Shown piece after piece: positions 46,437 through 49,295 of a DNA stretch of 52,345 nucleotides; the first letter of the stretch is position 1, and each line of letters opens with the position of its first letter. A program made the position numbers and the translations under genes. The notes beneath the pieces were generated by a model, which worked only from the letters and a program-made list of their open reading frames with translations, was not told the DNA's origin and did not search any database. The stretch covers positions 1 to 52,345 of IMG/VR virus record IMGVR_UViG_3300035070_002843. The stretch is one strand, 5' to 3'. Origin of the DNA: a virus.

Positions 46437-48002
46437 ATGGCCGTAACCCTAGCAACAATCAACAATACACTGGTAAATCAGAATGGTATTCTCAAGTCCA
46501 CTGATGCTGGAGTTAGGAATACATCACAGAATATTGATAAACTAGTCTCATCACTGTATGCAGATAGACTTGATAGGCTTGAGTCTGATAAGGAAGCAGA
46601 GCGTGGGGTGAAGGTCAAGACCGATAAAGCCAAAGGTGAATCCAACAGTGGTGGAATGTTTGGTGGTCTTGGCAATATGTTTAAAGGTGTTGGTGGTGCT
46701 TTGGCTGGTATCCCGATCCTAGGTGGATTCTTAACATCCTTTCTTAAATTTGGTAAATTATTATTGCGCTTTGGTCCCTTGGCATTGTTAATCGGCACTA
46801 TTGCTAGTGGTGTTGACACTGACGAATTCAGTCGTTTATTTACCAATATAGGTAAAGCATTTGAGAGTCTTAAAACCACTATCTCTGGATGGATGACCAG
46901 TACTGATAAATTCATGACAGAAAATGGTATTCAATTACCATCACTAAAGGAAGTACAGACATTTATTGTTGATAAGTTTAATGGTGCTCTTAAAGGTTTA
47001 AACAATATCCTTGAAGGTGACTTTGAAACCTTTGGTACTGATATAAAGAATATTGGTATCACTCTGGGTTTACTTGCATTTGCATTTAGGCCACTTGGGG
47101 TTATAGGATTAGCATTTAAAGCTTTAAAAGGAACTTTAGGTATTGCTGCTGCCGCTGCCGCTACAGGCGCTAGTGGTGCTGCAAAATTGGGAAGTGCTGC
47201 CGCTGCTGCCGCCACCGCTGCTGCTACTACAACCAAACAACCTGCTGCTGCCACCACAACGGCCAAACCAAGAAAGTTTAAAGTTGATAAGGCAGGCAAT
47301 TATACTAGTCTTAAAACGGGTAAACCACTTACAGGTGCTGCACTTAAAACTGCACAAGCAACCACGGCGGCAGATGCTGCTGCAGTGGCCAAGAAATTTC
47401 CCCGGTTTGGTGCATTGAGTAAATTTGCAACCAAAATACCAGTACTAGGTGGCCTTATCAGTGCCGGTCTAATTGCCAATGTATTAATGGGTGACGGCTC
47501 TAAAGATGATAAGATAAAAGGTGTCTCTGGCATATTGGGTGGTATCGGTGGCGCAGGCCTTGGTGCGTTGGTTGGTTCATTGGTCGCACCTGGACTTGGA
47601 ACAATTGCTGGAGCAATAATAGGTGGTTTGTCTGGTGATATGCTTGCAACAAGCTTGGCTGAATGGTTATTGGGCGGAAAATCCGATACATTAAAATCAG
47701 CGGCAAAATCACATGAATTGGCAACAACACCTAATGTGAGAATGGATGCTACATCAGATTCAAGATCAACAACGTATAAACCAAAACCTGCACGACCAAT
47801 GAACGCTGAGGTGCTAGGTACTTTAACTGCTGAACAATCACAGGTTGAAGCAATGCGCCGTAATGGTCGTGGTGGTGGTTCTGCACCAATTGTGATCCAG
47901 GATAACAGTGTAAGGTCAAGTAGCAATAATAGCGCTCTTGCACTACCACCAGCATCATCCGTTGATACTAGGTATAACAACCATTCGGGTTATATTAGAT
48001 AA
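46437..48002 (+). CDS. tape measure / hub length-determining protein (gp29-like)
   Basis: 521 residues, close to T4 gp29 (590). The N-terminal 70 residues are helical (NQNGILKSTDAGVRNTSQNI). Hydrophobic glycine-rich stretches follow at about 75-120 (LAGIPILGGFLTSFLKFGKL) and 335-415 (LGGLISAGLIANVLMG, GLGALVGSLVAPGLGTIAG), with an alanine-rich segment at about 231-262. This is the usual composition of tape measure proteins, which occupy the tail tube lumen and enter the membrane on ejection. It is the last gene of the plus operon. The Ala-rich codons are GC-rich compared with neighbours. Confidence 0.75.
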   Translation: MAVTLATINNTLVNQNGILKSTDAGVRNTSQNIDKLVSSLYADRLDRLESDKEAERGVKVKTDKAKGESNSGGMFGGLGNMFKGVGGALAGIPILGGFLTSFLKFGKLLLRFGPLALLIGTIASGVDTDEFSRLFTNIGKAFESLKTTISGWMTSTDKFMTENGIQLPSLKEVQTFIVDKFNGALKGLNNILEGDFETFGTDIKNIGITLGLLAFAFRPLGVIGLAFKALKGTLGIAAAAAATGASGAAKLGSAAAAAATAAATTTKQPAAATTTAKPRKFKVDKAGNYTSLKTGKPLTGAALKTAQATTAADAAAVAKKFPRFGALSKFATKIPVLGGLISAGLIANVLMGDGSKDDKIKGVSGILGGIGGAGLGALVGSLVAPGLGTIAGAIIGGLSGDMLATSLAEWLLGGKSDTLKSAAKSHELATTPNVRMDATSDSRSTTYKPKPARPMNAEVLGTLTAEQSQVEAMRRNGRGGGSAPIVIQDNSVRSSSNNSALALPPASSVDTRYNNHSGYIR

Positions 48003-48004
48003 AA

Positions 48005-48034
48005 CTAAAAAGGGTCCCGAAGGACCCTTTACTA
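48005..48034. terminator. bidirectional intrinsic terminator
   Basis: Perfect 9-bp inverted repeat (AAAGGGTCC at 48009-48017 and its complement at 48022-48030) with a four-base loop. Read on minus the loop is UUCG type and the stem is followed by TTTTTAG, ideal for ending gp32-tmRNA transcripts. On plus it follows the tape measure stop and is followed by a weaker TTTACTATTTT. Confidence 0.9.
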
Positions 48035-48069
48035 TTTTGGGTGATAAGGTATAGTTACCTCAGCTATGC

Positions 48070-48102
48070 TTAAGCGGCAATAGCAAATAACTCGTCGTTT
48101 GC
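48070..48102 (-). other. tmRNA tag reading frame (ANDELFAIAA)
   Basis: Ten codons GCA AAC GAC GAG TTA TTT and on to GCC GCT, then TAA, on the minus strand, giving ANDELFAIAA. The upstream AATAACTGCAAACG is the usual resume site of tmRNAs. The start AND-E and end AA are as in known degradation tags recognised by ClpXP. The stop is enclosed by a stem (48063-48067 with 48080-48084). Confidence 0.93.
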
Positions 48103-48190
48103 AGTTATTGGATTTTGCTTGATTTACAGTCATCGCCTACTGTGCTGTCCACTCCGTTACTCTTTGCTCTGTCGAAACCTGTACACCCCC

Positions 48191-48324
48191 ATCAAAAGTA
48201 GACTCAAGGGTGACACCTCACCCAAGGATAAATATCAGAGTCCAATTATCACTGACAGCCTTTCTAGGTATGTAACACATGGTCTAGAATCTGTTACACT
48301 GCCTATCTGTCTCTAGTCTACTTT
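48191..48324 (-). other. tmRNA intervening segment removed in maturation
   Basis: 134 bases between the encoded CCA and the start of the 5' half. The sequence 48194-48204 and 48315-48325 (AAAAGTAGACT and its complement) form an 11-bp stem that continues the acceptor helix, with the rest as a large loop. Such an extended stem is expected to guide trimming. No reading frame of interest is seen inside. Confidence 0.8.
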
Positions 48325-48383
48325 TGGTGGAGGTGGGGGGAATCGAACCCCCGTCCAGAACACCTTTCTCTTTGCTTCTTACA
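48325..48383 (-). ncRNA. tmRNA acceptor piece
   Basis: Carries the P2 strand (48356-48362), T-arm (48336-48352) and acceptor 3' strand (48329-48335), then the discriminator A and an encoded CCA at 48325-48327. No anticodon arm is present, so this is not a normal tRNA. The 5' end is uncertain and lies in the short gap after the gp32 stop at 48393. Confidence 0.85.
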
Positions 48384-48392
48384 GCAATAATA

Positions 48393-49295
48393 TCAATCGT
48401 CTTGTGCCAATTTGGCAAAATAACTCATAGTATCGTCATCATCTGCACTCACATCGGCAGCGGCAACTGGTTCCTTAAATGTTGGAGCAGGCGCAGGTGT
48501 ATTCATCATACGCTCCTCTTGAATTGAAGGTGAACCGGTTTCAGCAACCTGACCCAATACTCGTTGCAATTTTACTTGCAGTTCTGAGTATGATTTATAG
48601 TTCGCTGGGTCCAAGAACTCTTGCAATGGATGCATTTGGCCATAAATGGCTTCAAGTTTAGAATCATCATCAGACAGGGGTGCTGGAGATGAGAACTCTG
48701 ACTTGTCGTAGTTACGGTAACCCTCAACCTGACGAATCTTTAATTTAAAGTCAGCGCCTTCCCAGAAATCAAATGGGTTGACTGCCTTTTCATCTTGAAA
48801 CGCTGGTTGCATTACATCCATAATTTTATCGAAGATCTTTTTACCAAACTTAAAGAGCATTACTTTGCCCTCGTTATCCGGATTGCTAGGATCACTTACA
48901 ACGTATGCATTAACGACATAGTGTAGGCGACGCTTTTGAGCACGTGCAACTTCCTTATCGGATTCAATACCAGAGTTCCATAGTTTAGAGTTTAACTCAC
49001 CAACAGGGTCGGCCTGACCGATTGACGTGAGACTATTCTCAATATACCATTGACCCGTAGGGCCTTTGAATCCATGATCCCAGTAACGAACCCAAGGCAA
49101 ATCCTCACCACCTGCTGGGGGCAAGAAACGAAGTACGGCGTAACCGTTACCTGCCTTATCCACTGTTGGTTTCCAGAGCCGAGTGTCCTCGTAGGATTTT
49201 TTCTCACCACCACCAGCACCACCACCGACTTTTTCGGCTGCGTTGATGAGTTTAGAGATTTGGTCGCGATTGCGCTTAAGATTTTCAAATGACAT
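48393..49295 (-). CDS. gp32: single-stranded DNA-binding protein gp32
   Basis: 300 residues, close to T4 gp32 (301). Basic N-terminal LAST-like region (NLKRNRDQISKLINAAEK), then the OB-fold (GYAVLRFLPPAGGEDLPWVRYWDHGF, KRRLHYVVNAYVVSDP, GKVMLFKFGKKIFDKIMD), and a very acidic C-terminal tail (DDDDTMSYFAKLAQDD) that recruits other replication proteins. There is no cysteine at all, so the zinc-binding module of T4 gp32 is absent. It has a good ribosome binding site (AAAGGA) and its own sigma70-like promoter. The tmRNA follows directly. Confidence 0.95.
   Translation of the reverse strand: MSFENLKRNRDQISKLINAAEKVGGGAGGGEKKSYEDTRLWKPTVDKAGNGYAVLRFLPPAGGEDLPWVRYWDHGFKGPTGQWYIENSLTSIGQADPVGELNSKLWNSGIESDKEVARAQKRRLHYVVNAYVVSDPSNPDNEGKVMLFKFGKKIFDKIMDVMQPAFQDEKAVNPFDFWEGADFKLKIRQVEGYRNYDKSEFSSPAPLSDDDSKLEAIYGQMHPLQEFLDPANYKSYSELQVKLQRVLGQVAETGSPSIQEERMMNTPAPAPTFKEPVAAADVSADDDDTMSYFAKLAQDD

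Follow-up and report, generated by a model that had tools for sequence, protein, structure and literature searches.

A permuted betaproteobacterial-type tmRNA gene between gene 32 and its terminator in a T4-like phage

Introduction

Does the virus record IMGVR_UViG_3300035070_002843 carry a working tmRNA (ssrA) gene of its own, and what would a phage gain from it? The question arises from one locus of this record, the whole of which (positions 1-52,345; 52,345 bases) was analysed and is called the window here. An initial annotation had read the locus as a phage-borne, circularly permuted two-piece tmRNA with the tag ANDELFAIAA. Phage-borne permuted tmRNAs are already known, for example that of phage Melnitz, and a 2021 collection held 53 two-piece forms among 133 unique phage tmRNAs (PMC9004378). 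Our analysis indicates that the record comes from a T4-like phage and that the feature is probably a working ssrA gene, circularly permuted and of betaproteobacterial type.

Results

Identification and parts of the gene

Across the whole window ARAGORN made one tRNA-type call, a permuted tmRNA with the tag ANDELFAIAA at 47979-48417 on the minus strand. The Rfam model beta_tmRNA (RF01850) aligned along its full length (positions 1-331 of 331) to 48433-48006, scoring 156.2 bits (E 3e-48), and tmRNA_permuted (RF04321) matched 48386-48070 with 142.5 bits; the gathering scores, 84 and 47 respectively, were both exceeded. This support is far above chance, and the feature is a complete circularly permuted tmRNA gene of betaproteobacterial type at about 48386-48031 on the minus strand. 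The reading as a permuted tmRNA gene, for which the permuted Rfam models and ARAGORN had been proposed as checks, was thus confirmed, tag included. The range first given for it (48046-48383) had the right locus but ended slightly early at the 3' side, where the RNA reaches about 48031. The parts of the locus are as follows.

48393-49295, minus strand: gene 32, single-stranded DNA-binding protein, directly upstream on the same strand (phrog_224, E 5.6e-110)
48323-48386, minus strand: acceptor half, the upstream piece, beginning with a 5' region ahead of P2 (alignments to RF01850 and RF04321, sequence)
48362-48356, minus strand: P2 5' strand TGTTCTG, in the acceptor half (counted from the sequence)
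48352-48336, minus strand: T arm GGGGG-TTCGATT-CCCCC, in the acceptor half (counted from the sequence)
48335-48329, minus strand: acceptor 3' strand CACCTCC (counted from the sequence)
48328-48325, minus strand: ACCA closing the acceptor half (counted from the sequence)
48191-48324, minus strand: 134-nt intervening segment, absent from the two-piece form (no ORF with a Shine-Dalgarno site; no separate Rfam match to E 10)
48315-48335, minus strand: 5' arm of a 21-nt helix made of acceptor stem and intervening-segment stem (repeat search, 90% complementary; covariation across phages)
48184-48204, minus strand: 3' arm of the same helix, TGAT followed by the acceptor 5' strand GGGGGTG (repeat search)
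48031-48190, minus strand: coding half, the downstream piece (Rfam alignments; 1 change in 160 bases against the sibling contig L009)
48190-48184, minus strand: acceptor 5' strand GGGGGTG, in the coding half (Rfam alignments)
48171-48165, minus strand: P2 3' strand CAGAGCA, in the coding half (Rfam alignments)
48070-48102, minus strand: tag frame GCA AAC GAC GAG TTA TTT GCT ATT GCC GCT TAA, giving ANDELFAIAA and a stop (ARAGORN)
48031-48061, minus strand: probable post-tag H-type pseudoknot (homologous position in L324, L328, L304, L306, L310 and L314; weak in the window alone)
48009-48030, minus strand: intrinsic terminator hairpin common to gene 32 and the tmRNA, directly 3' of the RNA end (alignment with L008 and L010)

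Both ARAGORN and Rfam placed the acceptor half upstream of the tag-coding half. The acceptor stem, CACCTCC/GGGGGTG, has 7 bp, and its third pair is G-U, that is, G3-U70, a known alanine identity element; the T arm carries a TTCGA loop and CCA is encoded. The coding half runs from GGGGGTG through GGTTTCGAC, the D-loop region stretch before P2, to CAGAGCA, a hairpin at the PK1 position, the tag and the post-tag region. The tag begins at the resume codon GCA and has hydrophobic residues and AA at its end, followed by a stop. Every element that the initial annotation had named was found (acceptor stem, CCA, TTCGATT T loop, 7-bp P2, D-loop region stretch, resume codon and tag); it had made no mention of the 134-nt intervening segment or of its 21-nt, 90% complementary closing arms.

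Conservation of pairing among relatives

A set of 56 distinct permuted tmRNA genes was gathered from viral contigs and bacterial genomes. All cells of the acceptor stem (70/70) and of the T stem (45/45) were paired, and G3-U70 was invariant in all distinct acceptor pairs. In P2, 212 of 224 cells were paired, compared with a mean of 164.5 and a maximum of 181 in 500 shuffles. Compensatory changes occurred in the acceptor, T and P2 helices, with several positions showing pair types in which both partners differ. Acceptor and P2 pairings that are lost in relatives had been named beforehand as a result that would speak against a tmRNA, and no such loss was seen. The tag ANDELFAIAA was also shared by six other contigs (L009, L324, L325, L326, L327 and L328).

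The initial annotation had seen no obvious pseudoknot after the tag, which is probably wrong. The pairings GAGGT (48061-48057)/ACCTT (48050-48046) and ACTAT (48055-48051)/ATAGT (48035-48031) are possible at the known position of the beta-type pseudoknot, and L324 and L328 differ there by a compensatory change. In the window alone this pairing did not exceed chance, with 82 of 200 shuffles doing equally well, and we regard an H-type pseudoknot here as probable from the comparison with relatives.

The gene 32 locus in sibling phages

PHROG matches for genes of the baseplate wedge, the tail and single-strand binding identify the contig as a T4-like myovirus. By gene 32 and a baseplate gene, the nearest isolates are Phage C48C1 and Melnitz (Kyanoviridae), with 36-57% identity; for Melnitz the values were 55% for gene 32 and 36% for the baseplate protein. 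On the strand of gene 32, the tmRNA follows the stop codon of that gene and precedes its terminator. Just beyond the terminator ends an opposite-strand ORF of 521 aa (46437-48002, plus strand), for which no Pfam match was found and which tape-measure-like families matched only weakly.

Siblings were chosen among viral contigs by the closeness of their gene 32. L009, with 86% identity to the window in that gene, has the same tmRNA at the same site. L008 (97.5% identical in gene 32 DNA) and L010 (84%) have no tmRNA, and in both a spacer of about 20 bases is followed by the same terminator. The tmRNA is thus a cassette with precise limits, present in the window and L009 and absent from L008 and L010, within what is apparently the transcription unit of gene 32; it may have been either gained or lost there. 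The close relatives that lack it altogether also mean that the tmRNA is dispensable.

A cassette of this kind might be a passive passenger, mobile among phages and sites, that brings this phage no benefit. The precise presence or absence beside gene 32 is consistent with this, and so are the different gene neighbourhood of the same-tag tmRNA in L324, the tmRNA sites of L369 and Melnitz, which precede the late-transcription coactivator gene, and the hypervariable intervening segment. However, the mature parts stayed almost constant, with 1 difference in 222 bases between the window and L009 that lies in P2 and keeps the pair (U-A to U-G), while gene 32 diverged by 14% and the segment completely; nor was an integrase or homing gene seen directly at the window's site. 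We therefore consider a mere passenger unlikely. Recent exchange of the tmRNA among these phages could also partly explain why the mature parts are so alike.

The intervening segment

The segment is 134 nt long in the window and 68 nt in L009, and the two gave no sensible alignment outside the closing stem. This stem is kept with different letters, AAAGTAGACT/AGTCTACTTT in the window and GAAGCATACTAC/GTAGTATGTTTC in L009. It extends the acceptor helix, with ACCA opposite TGAT and one C-A mismatch. Over the first 12 positions of 39 distinct segments, 390 of 468 cells were paired, whereas shuffles gave 276 on average and 302 at most; TGAT closes 33 of the 42 segments of 45 nt or more. The same stem is often found in short bacterial segments (Herbaspirillum), so the helix is not an invention of phages.

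The short contig L326, a near-copy of the window locus, has the window's segment plus one extra unit (L326:1177-1284). This unit has its own closing stem and a T-arm-like hairpin, GTGG-TTCGAAT-CCAC, in a tRNA-like shape, followed by GGTGGTG and a second CTCCACCA.

Several candidates for content of the window's own segment were rejected. The fold of 48386-48160 is strong (z -4.2); the segment taken without its closing stem gave z -1.1, with 24 of 200 shuffles as good, which does not indicate a structured internal domain. The longest ATG frame has 20 codons and no Shine-Dalgarno site, Rfam up to E 10 gave only the tmRNA and no riboswitch or other known RNA, and the best match to isolated phages was weak and partial (E 0.4). 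Judged by its sequence, the segment of the window is noncoding.

Small genes in the segments of related phages

Phage permuted tmRNAs gathered without ORF selection included 49 segments at least 55 bases long. In 7 of these, CCA is closely followed by a Shine-Dalgarno site and an ATG that begins a frame of 18 codons or more; over 200 rounds of shuffling the mean was 0.55 and the maximum 3. Three contigs that share the tag of the window, L324 (2560-2872, minus strand), L325 and L328, encode MDDDLTRFIIGFAIIVLILFVFL or a two-residue variant of it in the segment. A directed scan for ORFs found more. Shine-Dalgarno-led frames are present in L121, L167, L332 and L382; L157 and L426; L116, L158 and L372; and L200, L344, L376 and L398, and the segments of L369, L383 and L386 hold a 146-aa protein of the SNase family (Pfam PF00565, E 2.6e-12).

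L369:3264-3718, minus strand: SNase-family nuclease gene between the tmRNA halves (PF00565)
L383:2903-3357, minus strand: the same
L386:1580-2033, minus strand: the same

The SNase frame stops within two bases of the acceptor strand, and between L369 and L386 the gene has 55% synonymous and 8% nonsynonymous differences. In L369 the tmRNA with this gene lies upstream of the late-transcription coactivator, the helicase loader and gene 32. The frames in the segments of relatives would encode membrane mini-proteins, small charged proteins and this nuclease. Often the stop codon of the ORF is the TGA within the conserved TGAT that precedes the acceptor stem, and several ORFs are kept across phages, with synonymous changes outnumbering nonsynonymous ones. 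In the cultured phage Melnitz (MZ577097, L298:5985-6437) a 54-codon frame (MFKWLSKTRLVVITRDYF...) starts in the segment with GGAG ahead of its ATG, and the phage's own record has no annotation for it. The literature searched, with key subscription papers outside it, gave no mention of ORFs in tmRNA segments, which is weak evidence.

These features suggest that the excised segment of phage permuted tmRNA genes could be a cargo site for any RNA or small gene, with the closing helix and TGAT kept, an idea to which we give an even chance. The cargo would be the 134-nt noncoding segment in the window, and in L326 one more tRNA-like unit. As far as the sequences go, the relatives argue for a cargo site more strongly than the window itself does.

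Discussion

Comparison with known tmRNAs

The window gene shares piece order, the tRNA-like domain, G3-U70, a tag of the form ANDE..A.AA and the position of the probable post-tag pseudoknot with the permuted tmRNA of Betaproteobacteria (RF01850, RF04321). It differs in being carried by a phage and in its 134-nt segment, compared with 35-44 nt in the measured Herbaspirillum and Duganella genes. The closest bacterial match, in 399 genomes of one betaproteobacterial order, has about 79% identity over about 115 bases of the coding half and the tag ANDENFALAA.

Some bacterial tmRNAs were unusual in their own right. In Herbaspirillum and Duganella genomes (L221, L245, L252, L253, L256 and L291) the permuted tmRNA tag ends in GT and not AA, for example ANEPQFVAYGT; in L245 a standard tmRNA tagged ANDNSYAQAA occurs in addition. 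The genome of Novimethylophilus kurashikiensis (L212; L301, L303) has a standard tmRNA (ANDETYALAA) and a permuted one (ANDESYRLVA) that is perhaps phage-derived.

The two-piece tmRNA described for Methylophilales phage Melnitz and related marine myophages (PMC9004378) likewise belongs to T4-like myoviruses. That of Melnitz is reported to be alphaproteobacterial in type, whereas that of the window is of beta type; it precedes the late-transcription coactivator gene, whereas that of the window follows gene 32; and it is reported with a glutamine riboswitch (PMC9004378), whereas none was matched near the window's tmRNA, with no Rfam riboswitch match in the window at gathering score and none in 47950-48450 up to E 10. 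The tmRNAs of Stenotrophomonas phages (Menderavirus such as Marzo) are also phage-borne and permuted, with an extended segment stem and TGAT, but they have the tag VAANDDSYTVRIAA, a 57-nt segment and a place in a tRNA cluster. The ssrA genes listed earlier for mycobacteriophages and Bacillus phage G (PMC4131195) are phage-borne too, in other phage groups, whereas that of the window is permuted and in a T4-like phage. A separate point concerns Synechococcus phage S-CAM1 (L447, KU686192), in which a 'hypothetical protein' at 676-801 is annotated over both permuted tmRNA halves and is probably a wrong gene call.

The window tmRNA thus has its own traits in the beta-type RNA, the gene 32 site and the long noncoding spacer. 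What is new is a tmRNA between the gene 32 stop and the terminator that some siblings lack; a segment fully different from that of L009, yet forming in both a long covarying helix that extends the acceptor stem; and small Shine-Dalgarno-led genes in the segments of other phage permuted tmRNAs, three of them with the window's tag.

Proposed function

We infer the following course from transcription to benefit. The tmRNA would be transcribed together with gene 32 and end at the shared terminator, and the precursor would fold with its acceptor stem prolonged into the intervening segment as a long helix. Host RNase P and tRNA 3'-processing enzymes would excise the segment, and the acceptor and coding pieces would remain paired with each other through the acceptor and P2 helices. 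The charging enzyme would be host alanyl-tRNA synthetase, acting via G3-U70, and host SmpB would deliver the RNA to stalled ribosomes, where ANDELFAIAA would be added, its hydrophobic end marking the protein for ClpXP-type proteases. No SmpB was found in the window, in the 102-kb record of L009 or in the record of L324, all of which may be fragments, so the tmRNA appears to depend on the host for it; the phage would contribute the RNA and leave SmpB, charging and processing to the host. The likely benefit would be that ribosome rescue is kept up while infection stops host transcription and breaks host mRNA.

Since the phage was not found to supply SmpB, its RNA might instead act as a decoy that occupies SmpB or alanyl-tRNA synthetase of the host and so weakens trans-translation there. 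PMC4131195, citing Mao et al. 2009, gives a precedent in the tag-less tRNA-like domain of mycobacteriophage DS6A, for which such inhibition was proposed. But a decoy would not need a tag frame, resume codon, stop and P2, all intact in the window, or a conserved tag, and several related phages carry this very tag, so we consider a decoy quite unlikely. Very unlikely is a main role as a structured 3' end that shields gene 32 mRNA from decay, because the place in the gene 32 3' untranslated region upstream of the terminator and the strong fold would suit it, but a simple hairpin would be enough, the conserved tag, G3-U70 and T loop would be left unexplained, and L008 and L010 manage without a tmRNA.

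A working tmRNA gene remains our preferred reading. A change in host tagging, as had been suggested for this locus, is no more than a possibility, and a host lineage cannot safely be deduced from the permuted type, because Melnitz has an alphaproteobacterial-type tmRNA in a methylotroph host (PMC9004378).

This locus is a clean case of a phage permuted tmRNA with matched siblings that have or lack the gene, and its value to the phage is thus testable. The part discarded in processing is the variable part, closed by a conserved helix and holding conserved small genes in related phages. If these segment genes are translated, a structured noncoding RNA gene would be a container for protein genes, akin to introns that carry homing nucleases, but without splicing.
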